The position numbers were made by a program, and so were the translations under genes. This document shows positions 1 through 10,695 of a DNA stretch of 64,000 nt, in pieces; position 1 is the stretch's first letter, and the number at the start of each line of letters is the position of its first letter. Below the pieces are notes generated by a model. The model did no database searches. It worked only from the letters and a program-made list of their open reading frames with translations, and was not told the origin of the DNA. Source of the stretch: Stutzerimonas zhaodongensis (GTDB taxonomy: Bacteria; Pseudomonadota; Gammaproteobacteria; Pseudomonadales; Pseudomonadaceae); the NCBI RefSeq assembly GCF_003696365.1, contig NZ_RFFM01000001.1, positions 1,565,852-1,629,851 of the forward strand, written 5' to 3'.

Positions 1-1503
1 GGCCTGGCCGTTGCGCAGTACCACGCAGGCCTTAACCGTCTCGCCACGCTTGGGGTCGGGGCAGGATATGACGCAGCATTCCTGAATTGCAGGGTGGCGG
101 TACATCAGGCTCTCCACCTCCGACGGCCAGACCTTGAAGCCCGAGGCGTTGATCATCCGCTTGACCCGGTCGACCAGGAAGAAATAGCCCTCTTCATCGT
201 AGTAGCCCATATCACCGGTGCGAAAAAACCGGTGGCCATCGAGGTCGATGAAGGCGCGCTCGGTCTCTTCTGGGCGGTTCCAGTAACCCTGGAACAGCTG
301 TGGCCCTCGGCTGATGATTTCGCCCACTTCGTTGGGGCCGAGTTCCTGGCCGGTGGTCAGGTCGATGACGCGGCTGTCGACGTCAAACACCGGAATGCCA
401 AGGCACTGCGGCTTTGGTCGCGGCACGGGATTGATGTGGGTGGCCGCGATGGTTTCCGACAAACCATAGCCTTCGATATAGCGAAGCCCGGTGAGGCGGT
501 GCAGTTTCTCCTCTACGGCCTTGGGCATTGCAGCACCACCGCCGCCAACGCTGACCAGGCTGGACAGGTCATAGCGCTCGACATCCGGATCGGAGAGAAA
601 ATCGATGGCCATGGTCGCGATGTTCACCCAGCCGGTGACTTTGTGTCGCTCGATCAGCTGGGCCGCCACGGTGCGGTCCCAGCGGGTCATGATGACCGCG
701 GTACCGCCGTTATATATCGGCCCGCTCATGGCACCCTGCATGCCTGTGACATGAAAGTACGGCAGCGTCGCGAGGATGACCGATTCACTGGTGCTGTTGG
801 TCCATACCACCCGATGAATGATCGTCGCCATGGCCGAGCGATGGGTGTGCATGCAACCTTTCGGCGCGCCCGTTGTGCCGGAGCTATAAGGAAACACACA
901 CAGATCGTCAGGTCCGGCCGTATGCGGCCCCGCCTTGTGACCAGCATTCAGAGCCTCGCTCCAGGCAATAGCCCCTGCGAAGTCCGGCGTAACGGCCGGT
1001 GCCTGCACCTCAGCCGGCAGCGCCAGATCGGTGGGCTGGCGAACGTAATCCGAGTAAGTCGCTACGATGACATGACCTAGCTGTGCAGTACCGACCAGTG
1101 GCGAGATGAATCCGGTCAGCTCCTGCCCGCAAAGGCACACGGCAGCGCCGGTGTCGTGCAGGTAGTGCTCGAGCTCCGCGCTGTGGTTCATCGGGTTGAC
1201 CGGGATCACCACTGCGTCCGCGCGCAGGATCGCGTAATAGGCAATGGTGAACTGCGGCGAGTTCTGCATGTACAGCAGCACCCGATCACCCTTTGCGACG
1301 CCCAGATGCCGCAGGTAGCCCGCCATTGCTTCCACTTCGCGCAGCAGTTCGGTGTAGGTGATCAAGGTGTCGTAGAAGATGATCGCCGTCTTGTTCGGGA
1401 AGCGCCGGGCGGAGACTTCGAGATTATTGAACAGGCTGGTCTCCGGCACGCTCAGGTGCTTGGGCAGATCGTCTGGCCAGACCGCATGATGACGAGTGAA
1501 CAT
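1..1503 (-). CDS. Acyl-CoA ligase (AMP-binding), C-terminus cut by window edge
   Basis: An ATP-dependent acyl-CoA synthetase that would activate a free carboxylic acid to its CoA thioester through an acyl-adenylate. My translation of the open minus-strand frame gives 501 codons without a stop. It contains the P-loop motif YSSGTTGAPKG near residues 205-215, the GYGLSET motif, the RTGDMGYYDEEGYF hinge region, and KVWPSEVES leading into the small C-terminal domain. The final catalytic lysine lies outside the window; the family is usually about 540-560 residues. The ATG shares one base with the TAA stop of the surE-like gene (TAATG), so translation is probably coupled. It is the last visible gene of an operon with kinase, dehydrogenase, SDR and thioesterase genes, which suggests it feeds that pathway. 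Medium-chain or hydroxy-acid substrates are plausible; the exact acid is unknown. Confidence 0.88.
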   Translation of the reverse strand, partial: MFTRHHAVWPDDLPKHLSVPETSLFNNLEVSARRFPNKTAIIFYDTLITYTELLREVEAMAGYLRHLGVAKGDRVLLYMQNSPQFTIAYYAILRADAVVIPVNPMNHSAELEHYLHDTGAAVCLCGQELTGFISPLVGTAQLGHVIVATYSDYVRQPTDLALPAEVQAPAVTPDFAGAIAWSEALNAGHKAGPHTAGPDDLCVFPYSSGTTGAPKGCMHTHRSAMATIIHRVVWTNSTSESVILATLPYFHVTGMQGAMSGPIYNGGTAVIMTRWDRTVAAQLIERHKVTGWVNIATMAIDFLSDPDVERYDLSSLVSVGGGGAAMPKAVEEKLHRLTGLRYIEGYGLSETIAATHINPVPRPKPQCLGIPVFDVDSRVIDLTTGQELGPNEVGEIISRGPQLFQGYWNRPEETERAFIDLDGHRFFRTGDMGYYDEEGYFFLVDRVKRMINASGFKVWPSEVESLMYRHPAIQECCVISCPDPKRGETVKACVVLRNGQA

Positions 1504-2306
1504 TACTGAACTCCTGAGTCGCAATTGACGGCCAGATCGGCCATGGCCTGTTCTTCGCCCCATTCGAGCCACCCACGGGTATCGCGCAATGGGGTGATTG
1601 CGATGCACTTTTGGCGCAGCGCCGTGACGTCCAGTGCAGGGTCGGTGAGATGTGCGGACGAATGTTCGAAGCCGAGCCACCAGTAGGGCAGCCCGCGGCC
1701 ATCCCGCCCCGCCTGCAGTCGCGGCCGGGCGATCGAGCCCCGAGATTGCCGAGCCATTCGCAGATGGCTGACTGCGTCAGCCGAGCAAGCCGGGAAGTTC
1801 ACATTCCAGCAACAGCCGTTTTCGTCACGACGCGCCCATAGCCCGCGGATGATCAATGCCGCATAGCTTTCAACGCATGACCAATCAATACCTGTGCGAT
1901 CCAGGAAGGCCTGGCTGAGGCCAATTGCCGGAAGGCCCAGCAGGTCGGCGCTGAGCACCGCTCCCAGCGTGCCGGAATAAGGCACCGAATCGCCAATGTT
2001 CGCGCCACTGTTGACGCCGGACAGCACCAACTCAGGTGGCGACTCCGCTAGCCATTCGGCCATGGCGAACATCACGCAGTCCGACGGCGTCCCTGAGACG
2101 GCGAAGCGTCGCTCGCCATGGTGGTACACGCGCAACGGCGCATGCACCGAGATGCCCTGCCCTGTACCGCTTTGGTCGTGCTCGGGCGCAACTACCCAGA
2201 CTTCCTCGGCCAGTTGTGAGGCAATGCGCTCGAGCAGTGCCAGCCCCGGTGCGGCAATACCGTCATCGTTGGTCAGCAGGACGCGGCGCAGCAAGGGTCC
2301 ATTCAT
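1503..2306 (-). CDS. surE: SurE-family 5'-nucleotidase/phosphatase paralogue
   Basis: SurE enzymes are metal-dependent phosphatases that act on nucleoside monophosphates and some other phosphoesters. From the ATG at 2306 the protein is 267 aa. Family metal ligands are visible: the N-terminal LLTNDDG (D14, D15), APEHDQSGTG (S46) and SGVNSGANIGD (N99), then the conserved PYSGTLGA loop. I chose this start because its ATG overlaps the upstream kinase stop by four bases (ATGA) and the NDDG motif follows at the normal distance; an in-frame start at 2345 would add residues inside the kinase gene. The canonical Pseudomonas surE sits in the pcm-nlpD-rpoS region, so this looks like a second, pathway-dedicated copy. 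It lies between a CoA-thioester kinase and an acyl-CoA ligase, so a role on a phosphorylated pathway intermediate or by-product nucleotide is an inference. Confidence 0.9.
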   Translation of the reverse strand: MNGPLLRRVLLTNDDGIAAPGLALLERIASQLAEEVWVVAPEHDQSGTGQGISVHAPLRVYHHGERRFAVSGTPSDCVMFAMAEWLAESPPELVLSGVNSGANIGDSVPYSGTLGAVLSADLLGLPAIGLSQAFLDRTGIDWSCVESYAALIIRGLWARRDENGCCWNVNFPACSADAVSHLRMARQSRGSIARPRLQAGRDGRGLPYWWLGFEHSSAHLTDPALDVTALRQKCIAITPLRDTRGWLEWGEEQAMADLAVNCDSGVQ

Positions 2307-3373
2307 AGCGCCGCTCCTCGGTCGCCAGCTTGAGCGATGCGCCAACCAGACTCGGCGAGAAGACCGGCCCGCTGGCCGACCTGCAGCGCATCGGCATTGC
2401 TGGCGTTGCCCTGCAGCGCACGCGCATAAACGCCCTGCAAAATGGCCGCAAGCCGGAACAGCGAAAACGCCACAAAGACATGCCAGTCATCAATGGCCGC
2501 ACGTCCGCTCTGCTCGCAATAACGCGCCAGCAGCTCCTGCTCGGATGGAATGCCCTGAGCTTTCAAATCGATTCCAACCAGGCCACGCAGGCCTTCGACA
2601 CCCGCCGGCAAGTGATAGGGCAAGCAGAAGTAGGCAAGGTCCGCCAGCGGATGACCGACCGTGGACAGTTCCCAATCGAGGATGGCCGCGACCCTCGCTT
2701 CCGCCGGCGCGAAGATGAGGTTGCCAAGCCGATAGTCGCCATGAGCAATTGCACATTCATCGCGCTGGGGCACCTGCTCTGGCAACCATTGCATCAGCCG
2801 CTCCATCGCTGGCATGTCGCCGGTGCGGGTAGCCTGGTACTGGCCGGACCAGCGTTTCACCTGACGGGCAAAATAGCCTTGAGCCTTGCCGAAATCACCC
2901 AGACCTACAGCTTCGACATCGACCTGATGCAGAGCGGCCAGCGTGTCGATGGCTGCCAGGTGAATCGGTGGGCGCTCAGCTGCGGTCAGCTGTTGCAGCG
3001 CGGGATGACTGAAGATGCGCCCATCGATGTGGTCCATCACATAGAAGGCGGTGCCGATGATGCTTTCGTCTTCGCATAACAGATGTACCGACGGCACCGG
3101 CACGCTGCCGTGTTCGAAAAGCGCCCGGATCACCTTGTACTCCCGCTCGACCATATGTGCCGAAGGCAGAACCTGGCCCGGCGGCTTCTTGCGCAGCACA
3201 TAGCGGCGACCGGCGCTTTCCAACAGGTAGGTCGGATTGGATTGGCCGCCCTGGAATTGGCGAACACTCAGCTGGCCGCCCATTTCCGGCAGGTGGTGGC
3301 GGAGGTATCGGGCCAGCGCAGCTTCGTCGAAACGATGCGCGGGAAGAACGTCGATCAGCTCGGGTTCGTTCAT
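2303..3373 (-). CDS. APH-fold kinase of the ACAD10/ACAD11 and LvaA type
   Basis: A small-molecule phosphotransferase with the aminoglycoside-phosphotransferase fold, 356 aa from the ATG at 3373. The N-lobe has GGQSNPTY, then VLRKKPPG (lysine near 62) and PSAHMVEREY, wording very close to the kinase domain of eukaryotic ACAD11. The C-lobe has the Brenner motif HGDYRLGN (H211, D213, N218) and LDWE (D233) for Mg2+ binding. In that family and in LvaA of Pseudomonas putida levulinate catabolism, the enzyme phosphorylates a 4-hydroxyacyl-CoA. A longer in-frame start at 3400 exists; 3373 is preferred because it has a GAGG ribosome site and leaves a 10-bp gap after the SDR gene. It overlaps surE by four bases. 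The substrate is inferred, and choline or sugar kinases of the same fold are the alternative. Confidence 0.88.
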   Translation of the reverse strand: MNEPELIDVLPAHRFDEAALARYLRHHLPEMGGQLSVRQFQGGQSNPTYLLESAGRRYVLRKKPPGQVLPSAHMVEREYKVIRALFEHGSVPVPSVHLLCEDESIIGTAFYVMDHIDGRIFSHPALQQLTAAERPPIHLAAIDTLAALHQVDVEAVGLGDFGKAQGYFARQVKRWSGQYQATRTGDMPAMERLMQWLPEQVPQRDECAIAHGDYRLGNLIFAPAEARVAAILDWELSTVGHPLADLAYFCLPYHLPAGVEGLRGLVGIDLKAQGIPSEQELLARYCEQSGRAAIDDWHVFVAFSLFRLAAILQGVYARALQGNASNADALQVGQRAGLLAESGWRIAQAGDRGAAL

Positions 3374-3383
3374 CGCCACGCCC

Positions 3384-4151
3384 TCAACATGCCGTTTCAC
3401 CGCCGTCGGCGACGATCACCTGGCCAGTGATGTAACCGCTGGCGGGGGCTGCCAGGAAGACCGCGAGACCGGCAATGTCCACCGGCTCACCAATTCGACG
3501 CAGCGGCGTTTTTTCGGCAGCGCGGCGTACTCGCTCCGGATCGTCCAGCAGTGCCTTGGCGAAATCGGTGCGCACAAGGCCCGGTGCAATGGCGTTGACG
3601 CGGATGCCCCTGGGACCCCACTCGGCCGCAAGATTACGCGCCAGCGCCGCCTCTGCCGCCTTGGATACACCGTAGGTGCCGATCACGGTATTGCCGCGCA
3701 ACCCGGCAATGCTGGAGAGCATGATCACCGCACCCTCGCCACGCTCGGCCATCTGGGGCAAGACCATGTTCGAAAGCCAGAAAGTGCCCTTGACGTTGGT
3801 GTCCATGATCTTGTCCCAGGCGTCGTCGGTCAGCTCGCTGGTCGGGCCGTAGACCGGGTTGGTCGCGGCATTGCAAACCAGCACGTCGATACGCCCCCAG
3901 GCCTGCAGAGTGGTGTCCACCAGCCGCTGGAGGTCTTCCTTGCGGCCCACATGGCAAGGCACTGCGATGGCCTCGTAGCCCGCAGCGTTCAGCTCGGCGG
4001 CAACAGCGTCGCAGGCATCGGCCTTGCGGCTGGAAATCACAACGCGCGCGCCGCACTTGGCCATTTCCTCGGCAATGGAGCGGCCGATGCCGCGGGTGGA
4101 GCCGGTGATCAGCGCCACCTTCCCGGTCAGATCGAATAGCGGATTGGTCAT
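3384..4151 (-). CDS. Short-chain dehydrogenase/reductase (SDR)
   Basis: A classical 255-aa SDR that oxidises or reduces a hydroxyl/keto group with NAD(P). Visible features are the nucleotide-binding TGSTRGIG (residues 17-23), the CNAA segment (N94), catalytic S147, and YGVSK with Y160 and K164, plus the IAPGLVRTDF stretch after strand six. It resembles 3-oxoacyl-ACP reductase-like enzymes, but its place between an acyl-CoA dehydrogenase and an acyl-CoA kinase suggests a hydroxyacyl-CoA/ketoacyl-CoA step, as proposed for LvaD in levulinate breakdown. An AAGGA ribosome site lies nine bases upstream of the ATG. It follows the dehydrogenase gene by 35 bp and precedes the kinase by 10 bp. Confidence 0.92.
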   Translation of the reverse strand: MTNPLFDLTGKVALITGSTRGIGRSIAEEMAKCGARVVISSRKADACDAVAAELNAAGYEAIAVPCHVGRKEDLQRLVDTTLQAWGRIDVLVCNAATNPVYGPTSELTDDAWDKIMDTNVKGTFWLSNMVLPQMAERGEGAVIMLSSIAGLRGNTVIGTYGVSKAAEAALARNLAAEWGPRGIRVNAIAPGLVRTDFAKALLDDPERVRRAAEKTPLRRIGEPVDIAGLAVFLAAPASGYITGQVIVADGGETAC

Positions 4152-4186
4152 CTGGCTGCGTCCTTCTTGTTGGTGTTATCAGGCGC

Positions 4187-5398
4187 TCAGCGCTTGCTGG
4201 AATAGTTCTTCAGCTCAAGCTTGGCGATGGTGTCCAGGTGAACTTCATCCGGCCCGTCAGCCAGACGCAGCGTTCGTTGATGAGCCCATGCAGCGGCGAG
4301 AAAGCTGTCCTGGGAAACGCCCTTGGCACCATGGACCTGGATGGCTCGATCCAGCACGCGCAGCGCCATGCTAGGGGCCGCGGCCTTGATCATGGCGATC
4401 TCCTGCCGCGCCACCTTGTTGCCGACGGTGTCCATCATCCGCGCCGCTTTCAGCGTCAGCAGGCGGGTCTGCTCGATCTCAATGCGCGAGCGAGCGATGT
4501 CCTTGCGGATCGAGTCGAAGTCCGCCAGCGGTTTGCCGAACGCCACCCGCTCATGTATGCGCTCGCACATAGCCTGCAAGGCGCGCTCGGCCACGCCGAT
4601 GGTGCGCATGCAGTGGTGGATGCGGCCGGGGCCGAGACGCCCTTGGGCGATTTCGAAACCGCGCCCCTCCCCCAGCAGCATGTTGCTGGCCGGGACGCGC
4701 ACGTTGTCGTAGTGGATCTCGGCGTGGCCATGGGGCGCATGGTCGTAGCCAAAGACGTTGAGCGCCCTGATGATCTCGACGCCTGGCGTGTCCAATGGGA
4801 CGAGGATCATCGACTGCTGCCGATGCCGCTCGGCGAAGGGGTCGGTCTTGCCCATGACGATAGCGATCTTGCAGGTGGTCGTCATTGCACCGGATGACCA
4901 CCACTTGCGGCCATTGATGACGTATTCATCGCCTTCACGGCGAATCTCGCAGGCGATATTGGTGGCGTCGGACGACGCCACCTCAGGTTCGGTCATGGAG
5001 AAGCAAGAGCGTATCTCGCCGTTCAGCAGTGGTTTCAACCACTTGTCCTGCTGTTCTGGCGTGCCGTAGCGCGCCAGAACCTCCATGTTGCCCGTATCCG
5101 GTGCCGAGCAGTTGAACACCTCGGCAGCGACAGGGGAGCGCCCCATGATTTCGCACAGGTGTGCGTATTCGAAATTGGTCAGCCCAGCACCGTGATCACT
5201 GTCCGGCAGAAACAGGTTCCACAAGCCCTGGGCACGAGCTTTGAGTTTCAGCTCTTCAAGGATCGGAGGGGGCGCCCAGCGATTACTGGCCGTGGCGACC
5301 TGCTCATGGAAAACGTGCTCGTTCGGGTAGATGTGTTCTTCCATGAATGCCGTGAGCTGCTGCTGGAGCTCCAGCGCTTTACCGGTCAGTTCATACAT
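4187..5398 (-). CDS. Acyl-CoA dehydrogenase of the ACAD10/ACAD11 type
   Basis: A FAD enzyme of the acyl-CoA dehydrogenase fold, about 403 aa. The signature [16 protein letters not shown], the WWSSGA segment, [10 protein letters not shown] and the C-terminal LADGPDEVH are the pattern I associate with ACAD10/11 dehydrogenase domains rather than with short-chain FadE enzymes. In ACAD11 and in LvaC this partner acts on a 4-phosphohydroxyacyl-CoA, with loss of phosphate and rearrangement toward a normal beta-oxidation substrate. The ATG at 5398 is preferred over 5404 because the AAGGA ribosome site is then eight bases away instead of two; the difference is two residues. The start overlaps the thioesterase stop by eight bases. 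The kinase domain fused to this one in ACAD11 is here encoded two genes downstream. Confidence 0.92.
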
Positions 5399-5894
5399 CG
5401 CCATGTTCCTTATTGTTGTTATGTGTCAGGAAATCCAAGGGCACGCCTTGCGCTTGCTCGCTGCCGGAGCGCAGGCGAAATGTGGCTTCGCCGATGGCCA
5501 GCAGGCGATCTTCGGCGTCGCGGACTTCTCCCGAACTATTGAAGATGCGACTGCCGCCGGCGCGTCGCTTGCCGATCGCGCGGATCACCCCACCCGAGCA
5601 TTGCCCGGTGAAGGTAGTGTTGAGCACCAGCGTGATGGCCTTGCGGACCCGTCCGGGATATGGGCAATAGGTGCCAGCTTCAGCCAGAACTACATCGAGC
5701 AGCGCGGTAATCACACCGCCATGAAGCACACCGGCCATATTCAAGTGGCAGGACTGAACGTCGAGCTCGATCACCGCCTCGTTCTCGCTCCATGACACCT
5801 GACGGTAGCCAAGCACCTGATGGAAACCGGGAAGGTCCTTGCCGCCGCTGATGGGCAGATCGCCCCTAGGGGTCGCGATTGTGGGCTCGTCCAT
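5391..5894 (-). CDS. PaaI-type hotdog acyl-CoA thioesterase
   Basis: A 167-aa hotdog-fold thioesterase that hydrolyses acyl-CoA to free acid and CoA. The family motif [17 protein letters not shown] (about residues 57-73) carries the HGG oxyanion loop and the acidic catalytic residue of PaaI/YdiI-type enzymes, and the [13 protein letters not shown] strand follows. It is the first gene of the six-gene minus-strand operon. The most likely role is release of CoA from dead-end or excess thioesters of the pathway, which is an inference. A plain PaaI-family assignment is safe; the chain-length preference cannot be read from sequence. Confidence 0.9.
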
Positions 5895-6021: not shown

Positions 6022-6243
6022 CCTTTGAAGCTGGCATGCCTGAATCCATGCGTCAATTCGAAATCCAGTTCCATCAGGCAGAATTATGATGACCCACAAA
6101 CAGAACCGTCTAAGCTGAACCGCGAGCTTGCGTGGCAGCATCCAGTCAGCGATCTGACACAATCTGAATGACCTGCCCTGCAGCGATAGCCTTCTGCTAG
6201 CGCTTGAAAAAGCCCTGCGCTATGTTAGCTTTCGATCAGCTTT

Positions 6244-6284
6244 GCAAAAGACAGTTTTGCTGTGCGAAACAAGCATGCGAAACA
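6244..6284. promoter_or_regulatory. Inverted and direct repeats upstream of dctP
   Basis: A perfect inverted repeat GCAAAA-N5-TTTTGC at 6244-6260 is followed at once by two copies of TGCGAAACA at 6263-6271 and 6276-6284. The cluster ends about 50 bp before the dctP ATG, so it could be an operator for the TRAP transporter genes or a leader structure. Confidence 0.4.
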
Positions 6285-6335
6285 GATGACACAAAGATGG
6301 CCCGCAGCCTGACAATTACAACAAGAGGACGCGTT

Positions 6336-7370
6336 ATGAAATCCATGCTCAAGAAGCTACTCGTACCGGCCAGCCTGGTCGCGTTTGCAGTGGCTACGGT
6401 GGCCTCCCCGGTGGCGGTCGCGCAGGACGTCACCAAGTGGCGTGTTCAATCCCACTGGCCGAGCGCCAGCAGCTCCTACAAGGACAGCCTTGAGCGGTTG
6501 AAACGCGAGATCGAAAGCCGCACCGAGGGCCGTCTGCAACTGCAGCTGTTCGAGGCCGGTGCTCTGTTCAAAGATACGGAAACCTTCAATGCGGTCAGCC
6601 GCGGCATCCTGCAGATGGGCACGATTTCGCCCGGTTACGCCCAGGACAAAATAAGCTTGGCCGGTATCGCCTCCGGTTTGCCCTTCGCGTTCCGCAACGT
6701 CTGGGAAGCCGCGTATTTCCATAAACACATGGGCTTCGAGGAGATGCTTCGCGAAGAGGCAGCCAAGCACAACGTGTACTGGTCGACCGACAAGGTCTAC
6801 CCCACCGAGATGGTGGTGAAGAAGCCAATCAACAGCTGGGAGGATTTCACCAAGCTGAAGATCCGCTCTTCCGGTGCGCTTCAGAAGTTTCTCAGCGAAG
6901 CCGGTGCATCCACCACTTTCCTTCCTGGCAGCGAGCTCTATCCCGCGCTGGATACCGGTGTGGTGGACGCTGCACATTGGGGCGCCGCGCAAGGGGCGGC
7001 CAGCATGAGCTTCTATGAGGTGACCAAATACCACGTCAAGCCGGCACTCAATATCGCTGGCACTGACGTGATCATCATCAGCCAGAAAGCCCTCGATGCG
7101 CTGTCCGAAAAGGATCAAGAAGCCGTCAAGCAGGTCCTCGATGAGCAATTCTGGTACCGCACCAACGAGTATCTGTACCAGGAGCAGATCGCCCTCTCCA
7201 ACGAGATCAAAGAGCACGGCGTCGAAGTCAACACGCTGCCTGAGGATGTGCAGAAGCGGCTGACGGAAGCCGCCCAGAAAACCTGGAACGCAGAAGGCAA
7301 GCGCAGCGACAACGCGGCAAAGGCGCTGCAGATGCTAAAGACCATGCTTGGCGATCTCGGCTATCTCTGA
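6336..7370 (+). CDS. dctP: TRAP transporter solute-binding protein (DctP family)
   Basis: Periplasmic receptor of a tripartite ATP-independent periplasmic transporter, 344 aa. Residues 1-29 form a signal peptide (KK, hydrophobic core, AVA cleavage site before Q30). The conserved KLKIRSSG contains R177, the arginine that in this family binds the substrate carboxylate, so an organic acid ligand is likely. The start at 6336 is chosen over the in-frame ATG at 6204 because it has an AGAGGA ribosome site and gives the signal peptide directly at the N-terminus. It is followed by the two membrane subunits. Divergence from the acyl-CoA/kinase operon suggests it imports the acid degraded by that operon; this is inference. 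Confidence 0.93.
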   Translation: MKSMLKKLLVPASLVAFAVATVASPVAVAQDVTKWRVQSHWPSASSSYKDSLERLKREIESRTEGRLQLQLFEAGALFKDTETFNAVSRGILQMGTISPGYAQDKISLAGIASGLPFAFRNVWEAAYFHKHMGFEEMLREEAAKHNVYWSTDKVYPTEMVVKKPINSWEDFTKLKIRSSGALQKFLSEAGASTTFLPGSELYPALDTGVVDAAHWGAAQGAASMSFYEVTKYHVKPALNIAGTDVIIISQKALDALSEKDQEAVKQVLDEQFWYRTNEYLYQEQIALSNEIKEHGVEVNTLPEDVQKRLTEAAQKTWNAEGKRSDNAAKALQMLKTMLGDLGYL

Positions 7371-7488
7371 CCTGCCAGGCTAGCCAGCACACCAGATTGC
7401 TCGCACTGGACCGGTCTCAGGGCCTGCCAGCGCGAGCGCTCCCGGTGTGGTTTCGCTCCCGATTCGCCATGCTGTCCTGGAGTTAGCG

Positions 7489-8034
7489 ATGCGCTTCATT
7501 CATGCGTACATCAACGGCATTACGCGGCTGAACAACCTGATCGGTCGTTGGGCGGCGTATCTGATACTGGTCATCTTTGTGCTGCTGATCGCCGAAGTGT
7601 TCATGCGGTATCTGCTCTCTGCGCCGACATCGTGGACCAACGAACTCGGGCAGATGCTGTTCGGCCTTTATATCGTCCTGTCCGGTGGCTTCGTCATGGC
7701 GCAACGCGGGCACGTCAACGTTGATCTTCTCTACAGCTCCCTCTCAAGAAGAACGCAGGCCTGGGTGGACATCTTTACCTCGTCGATGTTCTTTCTGTTC
7801 ATGGCCGCGCTGCTCTACTTCGGCAGTTCCATGGCCTGGGAGTCGGTCCAAAGCATGGAAACGAGTTATTCGGCCTGGAATCCGCCGATCTGGCCGATCA
7901 AGTTGGCCATTCCCATCGGCACGACTCTGCTACTCCTGCAGGGCGTGGCAAAGCTGCTGGACGACATTCTCGTAGCGCTGAACATCGAGCAAGACAAGGA
8001 TTTGTCTGAGTCTTCCATGGAGGGGAACAAATGA
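7489..8034 (+). CDS. dctQ: TRAP transporter small permease (DctQ)
   Basis: Small membrane subunit of the TRAP transporter, 181 aa, with four hydrophobic segments (about residues 19-40, 53-74, 91-115 and 132-153). Motifs typical of DctQ are EVFMRYLL near 33-40 and the WTNELGQMLF stretch. The ATG at 7489 is chosen over an upstream GTG (7447) because of the CTGGAG ribosome site. The gap after dctP is 118 bp, and the 3' end overlaps dctM by four bases, so the two permease genes are translationally coupled. Confidence 0.92.
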   Translation: MRFIHAYINGITRLNNLIGRWAAYLILVIFVLLIAEVFMRYLLSAPTSWTNELGQMLFGLYIVLSGGFVMAQRGHVNVDLLYSSLSRRTQAWVDIFTSSMFFLFMAALLYFGSSMAWESVQSMETSYSAWNPPIWPIKLAIPIGTTLLLLQGVAKLLDDILVALNIEQDKDLSESSMEGNK

Positions 8035-9341
8035 GCATCGAGATCACGACGCTGTTGTTCTTCCTTTCGCTGATTTTTTTCCTGGTACTTGGCCTGCCAC
8101 TGGCGTTCGTGCTCGGTGGTGTCTCGGTGTTGTTCCTGTATTTCACCTGGGGGGCGGACGCCTTCTACATGGTCGCCTCGCAGATGTGGGGCACTATGGG
8201 CAGCTTTACCCTGGTGGCCATCCCGCTGTTCGTGTTCATGGCCATGTTGCTGGAGCGTACCGGGGTAGCCCGCGACCTCTATCGAATGATGCACCTGTGG
8301 TGCGGCGGTATGCGCGGCGGTCTGGCGGTCGGCACCTTGGGAATCTGCGCGATCTTCGGTGCGATGGTCGGTATCAGCGGTGCCGCGGTGGTCGCCATGG
8401 GTACCATCGCGTTACCGGCCATGCTGGAGCGCGGATACGACAAGCGCATGGTGCTCGGCTGCATCAATACCGGCGGCGGCTGGGGCATCCTGATCCCGCC
8501 GAGCATCATGATGATTCTCTACGCCATGATCAGCGGTGTCTCGGTCGGCAAGATGTTCGCTGCTGGCGTCCTGCCGGGCCTTCTGCTGGTTGCGCTGACG
8601 GTCATCTATGTTCTGGGCCGCTGCTTTTTCCAGCCGCATCTCGCACCCGCGCTGCCGAAAGAGGAGCGCGGAAGCTGGGGCGAGAAGCTACGCGCCATCC
8701 GTGCGGTCATCCTCCCCATCGGTATCGTGGCAATGGTACTTGGCTCGATCATCGGCGGCATGACGACGCCTACCGAAGCCGCAGCCATGGGCGTGCTCGG
8801 CGCGCTGATCTCCGCAGCCGTATACCGCAAGCTCAACTGGGACATTGTTCAGGAAGCCGCCATCCGCACCTTCAAGCTGACCGGGATGATCGCCTGGATC
8901 CTGTTCGCGGCCCACGCTTTCAGCTCGGCCTACCAGGGTATGGGTGCGCAGTCGCTGATCGAAGGATTGATGATGGATCTGCCCGGAGGCCGCTGGGGCA
9001 TCATCATCACCATGATGGCCGTGGTGTTCCTGATGGGCATGTTGCTCGACCCCGTGGGTATCATGCTGATCACACTGCCGGTGTTTCTGCCCATCGTGGC
9101 GTCGCTGGGCTTCGATCCGATCTGGTTCGGCATCCTCTTCGTGATCAACATGGAGATTGGCTACATGACGCCGCCGTTCGGGTTCAACCTGTTCTACCTC
9201 AAGGGCATCGTGCCGCCGGGCATCACCATGCGTGATATCTACTGGTCGGTGATCCCCTTCGTGATAGTCAACATCATCGGGCTGGGCATCATCATGGTCT
9301 TTCCCGAGATCGCGACGTATCTGCCAAACCTGCTGTTCTGA
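8031..9341 (+). CDS. dctM: TRAP transporter large permease (DctM)
   Basis: Large membrane subunit that carries the Na+-coupled transport path, 436 aa with about eleven hydrophobic segments. Family motifs are visible: GSFTLVAIPLFVFMA, GISGAAVVAMG, NTGGGWGILIPPSI (the repeat-1 clamshell region) and LITLPVFLPI, PPFGFNLFY near the C-terminus (repeat 2). It starts inside the last codons of dctQ (ATGA). A strong terminator follows the stop codon by about 10 bp, ending this three-gene unit. Confidence 0.94.
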   Translation: MSIEITTLLFFLSLIFFLVLGLPLAFVLGGVSVLFLYFTWGADAFYMVASQMWGTMGSFTLVAIPLFVFMAMLLERTGVARDLYRMMHLWCGGMRGGLAVGTLGICAIFGAMVGISGAAVVAMGTIALPAMLERGYDKRMVLGCINTGGGWGILIPPSIMMILYAMISGVSVGKMFAAGVLPGLLLVALTVIYVLGRCFFQPHLAPALPKEERGSWGEKLRAIRAVILPIGIVAMVLGSIIGGMTTPTEAAAMGVLGALISAAVYRKLNWDIVQEAAIRTFKLTGMIAWILFAAHAFSSAYQGMGAQSLIEGLMMDLPGGRWGIIITMMAVVFLMGMLLDPVGIMLITLPVFLPIVASLGFDPIWFGILFVINMEIGYMTPPFGFNLFYLKGIVPPGITMRDIYWSVIPFVIVNIIGLGIIMVFPEIATYLPNLLF

Positions 9342-9399: not shown

Positions 9400-10695
9400 T
9401 CAGATGATGTTGGCGTAATCCGCCTCGATCCGATCCAGGCTCAGGTGATTGAGGAAGTTGGAAAAGCACATCCAGGCGGATAGCGCATTGAGGTCCTGGA
9501 ATTGCTGCGGCAGGTATTTGGGCGGTACCACCATGCCCTCCTCCACCAGTTGGCGCAGGGTCCGCATATCTTCCAGCGTGGTCTTGCCACAGAACAGCAG
9601 CGGTATGTGCTCCAACTTGCCTTTGCGCACCGCAAGCTGGATGTAGTTGTAAATCATGATGAAGCCCTTCAGGTAGGACAGGTCCTTGGTAAAGGGCAAG
9701 CCATCGGGCGTCGAACCACGGAAGACCCGGCTGGCATTGCTGTAGCACTCGTCCTGTGCATATCCCTGGTCCTGGAAGAAGGCGAATACATCGAGGAAAT
9801 CCGCGCCCTCCTCGGCCATGTGGATCGCGCGGGTGCGGTTGGTGAGCTTGCGCAGCCGTGTCGGGTAGGAGGCGAAAGCGATCACCTCCATGAGGATCGC
9901 CAGACCTTCCTGCGTGACCGTTGACGACGGTGGCCCCTTGGCGAGAAAGGTGCAGATAGGCTGGTTCTGTCCGTTGAGCGTGGTGCCGACGTGTACCAAA
10001 CCCTCGTGGACTTCCAGTGCGCGCACATCGCGCTCGTTGAACATCGCATCGCTGCGGATCTTGATGTAGTCGGCGCCGGCTGCGGCATCAGCAAGGATGC
10101 CATCGGACTCGAAGACGCGGATCACACCTTCACCTTCGCCGAACACCAGGTCGAGGCGACGCTGCAGCATGTCCACCGCCTGCGGTGCGGTCAGGATCTT
10201 GGCTTCGTCTTTCAGGTCGCCGCGGTCGGCAATATTGTTCAGGTAATCGGAAAGCATCAGCCCGAGGTCGGCCAGCGTGGGATCACCAGCGTGGAAGGCA
10301 TCGGAGGCGGCACCGTAAAGCTCTTGGGAAATCAGTCCGAAATCGGCAGTCCCGCGCGCTTCGAGCATGCGGATGACCATGCGGTATTCCTTGCACATGC
10401 GCCGCATGATCTGCCCGACCGGGTTGAACTGGCCCAGCTGACGGGTGATATCACGCTCGATGTTCTGAAATTCTTCTTTCTTCGCGCTTGAGTCGAAGCC
10501 CAGGGGCCGGCTCTCGTAATAAGCACGGTCGACCTTAGGCAACTCGCGTCCGCCGGCGGCAAGAAAGCCTTGGCGGATGCTGTCGTCCCACTTCACTGCA
10601 TCGAGTACCCGAACCGGAGTTTGAGCCTCGACGATGCGGTCGGACAGGCAACGCACCGTTAGTTGGTATTCGTCCAGGTTGTTACGGGAATTCAT
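9400..10695 (-). CDS. DUF1704 QEGLA-motif putative metallopeptidase (MATCAP-related)
   Basis: A 431-aa protein of the family annotated as flavohemoglobin expression-modulating QEGLA motif protein (DUF1704, TIGR02421-like). It carries H230-E231-x3-H235 (HEGLVH), followed by TQEGLA with E263, the metal-ligand arrangement of the eukaryotic tubulin detyrosinase MATCAP/KIAA0895 family. This suggests a zinc carboxypeptidase-like enzyme. No signal peptide or membrane segment is seen, so it should be cytoplasmic. The bacterial substrate is unknown and the flavohemoglobin name reflects one early observation. It stands alone between a terminator and an intergenic gap. Confidence 0.85.
   Translation of the reverse strand: MNSRNNLDEYQLTVRCLSDRIVEAQTPVRVLDAVKWDDSIRQGFLAAGGRELPKVDRAYYESRPLGFDSSAKKEEFQNIERDITRQLGQFNPVGQIMRRMCKEYRMVIRMLEARGTADFGLISQELYGAASDAFHAGDPTLADLGLMLSDYLNNIADRGDLKDEAKILTAPQAVDMLQRRLDLVFGEGEGVIRVFESDGILADAAAGADYIKIRSDAMFNERDVRALEVHEGLVHVGTTLNGQNQPICTFLAKGPPSSTVTQEGLAILMEVIAFASYPTRLRKLTNRTRAIHMAEEGADFLDVFAFFQDQGYAQDECYSNASRVFRGSTPDGLPFTKDLSYLKGFIMIYNYIQLAVRKGKLEHIPLLFCGKTTLEDMRTLRQLVEEGMVVPPKYLPQQFQDLNALSAWMCFSNFLNHLSLDRIEADYANII

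Follow-up and report, generated by a model that had tools for sequence, protein, structure and literature searches.

Mammalian ACAD11 takes part in the catabolism of 4-hydroxyacyl-CoA and carries a kinase and an acyl-CoA dehydrogenase (ACAD) in one fused chain, and ACAD10 joins a phosphatase-like haloacid dehalogenase (HAD) domain to a similar kinase and ACAD (PMC12440821, PMC11342911; here and below, statements credited to a paper rest on excerpts of it). The link of both proteins to 4-hydroxy fatty acid breakdown is recent. In bacteria, kinase, ACAD, short-chain dehydrogenase/reductase (SDR) and ligase stand together in the lva operon of Pseudomonas putida (LvaA-LvaE), and an lva-like cluster of P. 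citronellolis LA18T has, next to its lvaA homologue, no lvaB but a gene for a histidine phosphatase that may remove phosphate (PMC6692424). Here we describe a related operon at the beginning of a 64,000-nucleotide stretch of Stutzerimonas zhaodongensis DNA (contig NZ_RFFM01000001.1, positions 1,565,852 to 1,629,851; "the window"), in which a gene for a SurE-family phosphatase lies between those for the kinase and an acyl-CoA ligase. We assign an even chance to the reading that this operon encodes a split bacterial ACAD11 hydroxy-acid pathway with SurE as its own salvage phosphatase.

The operon encodes a split ACAD11 system

All six genes point the same way, in the order thioesterase, dehydrogenase, SDR, kinase, SurE and ligase (Table 1). 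The tight packing described in an earlier note on this DNA was borne out by the coordinates: thioesterase and dehydrogenase genes overlap by 8 bp, kinase and SurE genes by 4 bp and SurE and ligase genes by 1 bp (starts as called), with gaps of 35 bp between dehydrogenase and SDR and of 10 bp between SDR and kinase.

In a sequence comparison with every solved structure, the dehydrogenase matched ACAD11 chains best (1e-146 to 1e-143), followed by 4hr3 (1e-137), and the next class reached only 1e-38. Alignment revealed equivalents of ACAD11 R626, H634 and R637, which bind the 4-phosphate, and of the catalytic D753 (PMC12440821). An HCMR motif with an upstream Arg and a DGPDE motif were present in all 68 tested dehydrogenases of named relatives. 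In a tree of 30 rows the dehydrogenase grouped with ACAD11 (starred, support 99), apart from ordinary acyl-CoA dehydrogenases, and the pair from two lva-type clusters, L186 and L187, were the next neighbours of this group; all trees reported here are quick searches with support from the Shimodaira-Hasegawa-like approximate likelihood ratio test (SH-aLRT) only. For the kinase, 3dxp was the closer solved structure (1e-105, 48% identity) and ACAD11 came at 1e-91. The kinase shares 43% identity with the kinase domain of ACAD11 and 28% with lva-type kinases, possesses the catalytic Asp and Asn that it has in common with ACAD11, and groups with ACAD11 in the kinase tree (94, not starred), with lva-type kinases far away. 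Its HGDxRxGN motif was found in 80/80 kinases of named relatives and the DWE motif was missed in one of the 80; a stricter first motif, allowing L, I or M at one variable position, matched 40/80 and was given up for the relaxed HGDxRxGN. These 80 named loci are the best 80 of 357 relatives obtained with a kinase profile against named genomes and are biased towards close kin, the phylum sample used below being fairer.

Because kinase and dehydrogenase both group with ACAD11 in the trees, the sequences identify the window operon as an ACAD11 system in split form and not as an lva operon. The likeness to ACAD11 claimed in the earlier note is thus upheld by structures, residues and trees, both proteins falling inside the ACAD11 grouping and not outside it, and its parallel with the lva operon was not borne out by the trees in which the lva-type clusters L186 and L187 served as references. 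Unlike ACAD11 proper, which is one fused chain, the window has separate kinase and ACAD genes, in an operon that also encodes SDR, ligase, thioesterase and SurE. Since the dehydrogenase and the kinase belong with ACAD11, hydroxyacyl-CoA is likely to be processed by phosphorylation followed by elimination.

With the lva operon the window shares kinase, ACAD, SDR and ligase, and the HCMR motif is also found in the ACADs of L186 and L187. It differs in the placement of its kinase and ACAD with ACAD11 in the trees, in the added thioesterase and SurE and in the absence of LvaB: as noted earlier, none is visible, and there is no small gene between the six. An LvaR-type sigma-54 regulator was not found among the flanking frames scanned, which were part of all flanking frames. 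The reference rows L186 and L187 come from our family sample and were recognised by gene order alone. L187 (G028:C1:3520000-3533500) has a PrpR-type sigma-54 regulator and a ligase divergent from kinase-histidine phosphatase-ACAD-SDR, which is the layout given for P. citronellolis in the excerpts of PMC6692424; its histidine phosphatase matched PF00300 with 133.5 bits. Both this cluster and that of LA18T resemble the window operon in having a phosphatase gene beside the kinase and no lvaB, and differ from it in the type of phosphatase, histidine phosphatase instead of SurE, and in the adjoining PrpR-type regulator. L186 (G044:C3:226000-245500) comprises kinase, a 159-aa frame, ACAD, SDR, ligase and an SSF symporter; two kinase copies with identical protein sequence, about 8.7 kb apart, flank its ligase-SDR-ACAD set and symporter. 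The dehydrogenases of L186 and L187 are 33-34% identical to that of the window, whereas LvaC is reported to be 62% and 56% identical to the dehydrogenase domains of ACAD10 and ACAD11 (PMC11342911); because of this discrepancy, either the lva-type dehydrogenases here are not true LvaC orthologues or the identity measures differ.

A distinct SurE paralogue adjoins one clade of kinases

Of the 80 named loci, 77 extend far enough downstream of the kinase to be judged, and 71 of these encode SurE directly 3' of it; a start within 400 bp was counted as adjacent, and the three loci with 900 bp or less downstream of the kinase were omitted. These loci belong to Stutzerimonas, Salinicola, Marinobacter, Vreelandella, Alloalcanivorax, Halopseudomonas, two Pseudomonas species and some metagenome-assembled genomes, and in 25 of the 71 the overlap between the two genes is exactly 4 bp. 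In the family sample of 59 genomes, an operon-type SurE adjoins the kinase in 3/5 sampled genomes of the window's genus and in 5/5 of genus g5, and six other related SurEs (in g11, g14, g15 and g17) lie elsewhere in family genomes. In a 249-genome phylum sample there were 102 kinase matches, and SurE was adjacent for five of them, as read by comparing two coordinate lists; these five are the only ones at least 64% identical to the window's kinase, the next being 56%. Around the 52 phylum-sample kinases whose loci we fetched, no SurE was detected within 5 kb. Since adjacency extends across the named genera but is limited to 5/102 matches in the phylum sample, the kinase-SurE link is old, yet restricted to a single clade of kinases (SH-aLRT 99). 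The conserved kinase-SurE neighbours that the earlier note proposed to search for therefore exist well beyond this strain, and the idea of a local accident is ruled out by the named loci together with the family genomes. In one named locus, L102 (Marinobacter salarius CP007152), the SurE frame matches in two separate pieces, perhaps owing to a frameshift. SurEs less than 60% identical to the window's also occur on 41 plasmid or megaplasmid records, and the three of these that we opened have no kinase or ACAD annotated nearby.

The operon SurE is not the sole SurE of its genome, since a housekeeping copy, 33% identical to it, is encoded at G000:C12:561224-561928. In the SurE tree, a branch (support 90, not starred) separates the operon SurEs from the other SurEs tried. 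The operon SurEs lie far from gammaproteobacterial housekeeping SurE, and over 23 loci their distances track the kinase distances (r 0.90). By sequence, conserved residues and predicted fold the protein nonetheless belongs to the 5'/3'-nucleotidase family SurE (PF01975): it matches PF01975 and contains the N-terminal Asp-Asp motif and the strictly conserved Asn that are hallmarks of the family (PMC8475336). All residues universal among the compared SurEs were present in 22/22 operon SurEs, and Ser107 is fixed in these 22, in contrast to Asp or Glu in the 22 others compared; the partial L102 row was omitted from this comparison and retained in the tree. TNDDG and DxSG motifs were found in 71/71 operon SurEs and the Asn-containing SGxNxG..DSVxYSGT loop in 70/71. 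The ratio of non-synonymous to synonymous substitution rates (dN/dS) was about 0.08 at two close loci, L039 and L043, and reached 0.18 at L048, with dS of about 0.8-1.2, and the operon SurE is under purifying selection. A predicted model has the SurE fold, with a mean predicted local distance difference test (pLDDT) score of 83.5 and 4zg5 as its best PDB match.

Histidine phosphatases occupy the same slot beside other kinases

We fetched 53 kinase loci of the phylum sample and dropped L144, where no kinase frame was called, leaving 52 kinases that are 33-56% identical to that of the window. A histidine phosphatase is encoded within 5 kb of 18 of the 52, compared with 0.59 expected from genome-wide PF00300 counts among the matches listed, an estimate that treats relatives as independent, though they are not. 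Seventeen of the 18 were found with a profile built from 13 of the same 52 loci, and all 17 lie on the strand of the kinase; L137 was added from PF00300 coordinates. Two weak profile matches, L142 and L146 (27 and 29 bits), were strong by PF00300 (114 and 106 bits), and the motif RH(G/A)QASFG is present in all 13 profile proteins. The kinase clade tree was built from 25 of the 80 named loci (including all six without adjacent SurE), the 52 sampled kinases, five from the family, the window's and three PDB chains; on this tree the histidine-phosphatase label needs nine changes, at least seven of them forced by starred branches. Four loci (L161, L163, L167 and L169) have the order ACAD-SDR-kinase-histidine phosphatase-SDR, matching the ACAD-SDR-kinase-SurE-SDR order of Halopseudomonas. 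Outside the 18/52 count, five further loci chosen post hoc included three with a histidine phosphatase near the kinase (L185, L187 and L188), and none was found by the profile in the other two (L184 and L186).

Several genomes with a SurE operon have a second cluster with a histidine phosphatase, namely G117, G149, G100, the window's own (L166) and G077 (L188). From these second clusters we conclude that the phosphatase type follows the kinase clade and not the organism. The second cluster of the window genome (G000:C23:47692-58669) encodes a histidine phosphatase, an SCP2-domain protein, a kinase 34% identical to that of the window and an SDR. A scan of 106 otherwise unclassed neighbours of 110-700 aa, within two genes of the kinases, yielded one PhoD and no recurring phosphatase among the best 25 of 114 families. 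The single P. citronellolis case is already in print, and the recurrence of the histidine-phosphatase slot beside other kinase clades is new here: in open-access PMC full text, among the matches listed, we found no paper that places SurE in an operon of this type and, except for PMC6692424, none on a recurring phosphatase slot.

A proposed salvage role for SurE

In our model, the hydroxy acid would probably be imported by the divergent TRAP transporter (Table 1) and the ligase would form its CoA thioester. The SDR would set the oxo/hydroxy state, the kinase would phosphorylate the hydroxyl, and the dehydrogenase would eliminate the phosphate to yield an enoyl-CoA for beta-oxidation. SurE would strip phosphate from those phosphohydroxy-acyl products that are no substrate for the dehydrogenase, being either phosphorylated with the wrong position or stereochemistry or present as free phosphohydroxy acid after thioester loss, while the thioesterase would free CoA and the ligase would re-activate the acid. 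The substrate, each of these reactions and the salvage task of SurE and thioesterase are predictions. Free 4-phosphohydroxy acid forms in mammalian cells (PMC11342911), which we count in favour of salvage. Two observations suggest that the substrate of SurE is made by the kinase and is not AMP from the ligase. SurE stays with the kinase where no ligase of the operon's kind is nearby, as in 6/6 Halopseudomonas-type named loci of at least 18 kb (L103, L105, L114, L116, L117 and L118), which have no such ligase in their flanks, and an unrelated phosphatase occupies the same slot beside other kinase clades.

Several points weigh against this proposal. The salvage role is deduced from the genes. 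SurE proteins are known nucleotidases and exopolyphosphatases (PMC8475336), and the HAD domain of ACAD10, likewise a phosphatase-family module joined to such a kinase, has negligible phosphatase activity (PMC11342911); that domain, however, is unrelated in kind to SurE and has no full DxD motif, whereas the residues of the operon SurE are conserved. The SurE model is silent on specificity because it is least sure in the loops at about 41-60 and 101-110, and the co-divergence of SurE and kinase could arise from shared species history alone. In addition, neither SurE nor histidine phosphatase was found within 5 kb of 34 of the 52 sampled kinases.

The six named loci without adjacent SurE (L051, L062, L080, L094, L095 and L096, the last from a record labelled Rhodopirellula that is probably mis-binned) also bear on this question. 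The chief contrary observation is that in L182 and L183 SurE accompanies a ligase instead of the kinase. L182 lies in the L051 genome (S. azotifigens DSM 17556), where SurE is beside a different SDR and ligase; L183, with the order thioesterase-SDR-SurE-ligase, lies in the L080 genome (Marinobacter piscensis), where the kinase is elsewhere, about 55 kb away in the relocated ACAD-kinase pair of L080, assuming that both contig copies run the same way. L080 itself reads histidine phosphatase-4HBT_2 thioesterase-SDR-ACAD-kinase, so that enzymes unrelated to SurE and to the operon thioesterase stand in for both. L062, L094 and L095 retain thioesterase-ACAD-SDR-kinase-ligase in genomes whose only SurE is of housekeeping identity (31-34%), which also counts against the proposal. 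SurE is thus tied to the pathway, since in L182 and L183 it accompanies other pathway genes even away from the kinase, but dispensable, since these three genomes retain the operon without an operon-type SurE.

The arrangement in L182 and L183 would suit a nucleotidase that clears AMP made by the ligase, or other nucleotides, with the position between kinase and ligase being incidental. The known 5'/3'-nucleotidase activity of the family (PMC8475336) and the 1-bp overlap with the ligase gene are consistent with this view. We nevertheless consider it rather unlikely, as SurE keeps to the kinase in the Halopseudomonas-type loci, the genome has a separate housekeeping SurE, and the slot beside other kinase clades is filled by an unrelated phosphatase. 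Unlikely, too, is a SurE that serves mainly as a partner or brake of the kinase, with catalysis secondary, even though the lva kinase LvaA interacts with LvaB (PMC6692424), which is absent here, the ACAD10 kinase is held back by a HAD domain with no real phosphatase activity (PMC11342911), and both the 4-bp overlap in 25/71 loci and the co-divergence (r 0.90) speak of close association. A purely structural partner would not need the SurE-universal residues, which are all kept, and three genomes do without SurE, while in M. piscensis the genes are not adjacent. SurE might also carry out a productive step, for instance by removing phosphate from a substrate that comes in, or is formed, as a phosphate ester, as proposed for the histidine phosphatase of P. 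citronellolis acting on 4-phosphovaleryl-CoA (PMC6692424); the aldolase-II gene in the operon would agree with this. We regard such a step as improbable, given that the ACAD has the residues for eliminating phosphate itself and that three genomes have kept the operon without this SurE. That SurE is a passenger unconnected to the pathway is very improbable: similar copies do occur in unrelated contexts (L032-L037; L179-L181), but adjacency in 71/77 loci of several genera, purifying selection and the different phosphatase in the same slot elsewhere contradict it.

If SurE is indeed the salvage phosphatase of the operon, a protein known as a nucleotidase would gain a specific metabolic job. More broadly, and tentatively, since we rate it somewhat below an even chance, phosphorylate-and-eliminate catabolism may benefit from a phosphatase able to reverse misplaced phosphorylation, and unrelated phosphatases may have been recruited for this several times: SurE, histidine phosphatases and the HAD domain of ACAD10, which would now be a brake. 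Such recruitment, if true, would constitute a metabolite-repair module not described as such, and the operon and the clades defined by the slot make a repair of stuck phosphates testable with small soluble proteins.

Operon extent and neighbouring genes

The six genes of the earlier note stand as a unit, but the operon is longer than the note had it, since the ligase gene runs on for 180 bp past window base 1 (complete frame L004:9821-11503, 560 aa) and is followed by aldolase-II and GhrA-like genes on the same strand. A second acyl-CoA ligase gene lies past the GhrA-like gene on the opposite strand. The label PaaI for the thioesterase proved too specific: the protein scored 25.9 of the 118.9 bits required for the TIGR02286 equivalog and qualified as a hotdog-fold protein by TIGR00369; its score against Pfam 4HBT (20.3 bits) is slightly below the cut-off of 20.6.

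Table 1. Genes of the operon and its immediate neighbours (window positions unless prefixed L004).
Feature	Position	Strand	Evidence
Hotdog-fold acyl-CoA thioesterase, 167 aa, first operon gene	5391..5894	-	TIGR00369 53.5 bits (cut-off 36.6)
ACAD11-type acyl-CoA dehydrogenase, 403 aa, predicted to act on phosphoacyl-CoA by phosphate elimination	4187..5398	-	ACAD11 structures, residues, tree
Short-chain dehydrogenase/reductase (SDR), 255 aa	3384..4151	-	PF13561 225 bits; NCBIfam PRK07231 268 bits (cut-off 215)
ACAD11-type APH-fold kinase, 356 aa, predicted hydroxyacyl-CoA kinase	2303..3373	-	PF01636 170 bits
SurE-family phosphatase, operon-specific paralogue, 267 aa	1503..2306	-	PF01975 177 bits
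AMP-forming acyl-CoA ligase, cut by window edge	1..1503	-	PF00501 300 bits; NF006181 793 bits (cut-off 705)
Divergent DctPQM tripartite ATP-independent periplasmic (TRAP) transporter, likely substrate importer	6204..9341	+	PF03480 154 bits; TRAP_S1 108 bits
Aldolase-II gene, after ligase	L004:9020-9766	same as operon	
2-hydroxyacid dehydrogenase resembling GhrA, after ligase	L004:8016-8951	same as operon	280 bits (cut-off 403)

No known RNA element was found by Rfam at gathering score in the 20 kb around the operon, and a search for a clear sigma-70 promoter in the divergent gap gave one weak site against 0.4 expected. A relative of DctP is encoded in the flanks of 49 of the 66 named loci of at least 18 kb. 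The TRAP transporter of the window adjoins a TIGR02421 QEGLA-motif protein gene (9400-10695, minus strand), and a 431-aa frame, equal to it in length, is likewise placed in L025 and L026. On the other side, a branched-chain-type ATP-binding cassette (ABC) transporter is encoded 3' of the ligase in seven of the 16 named loci with clustered neighbours (L052, L058, L072, L078, L097, L106 and L111), where it is possibly a second importer.

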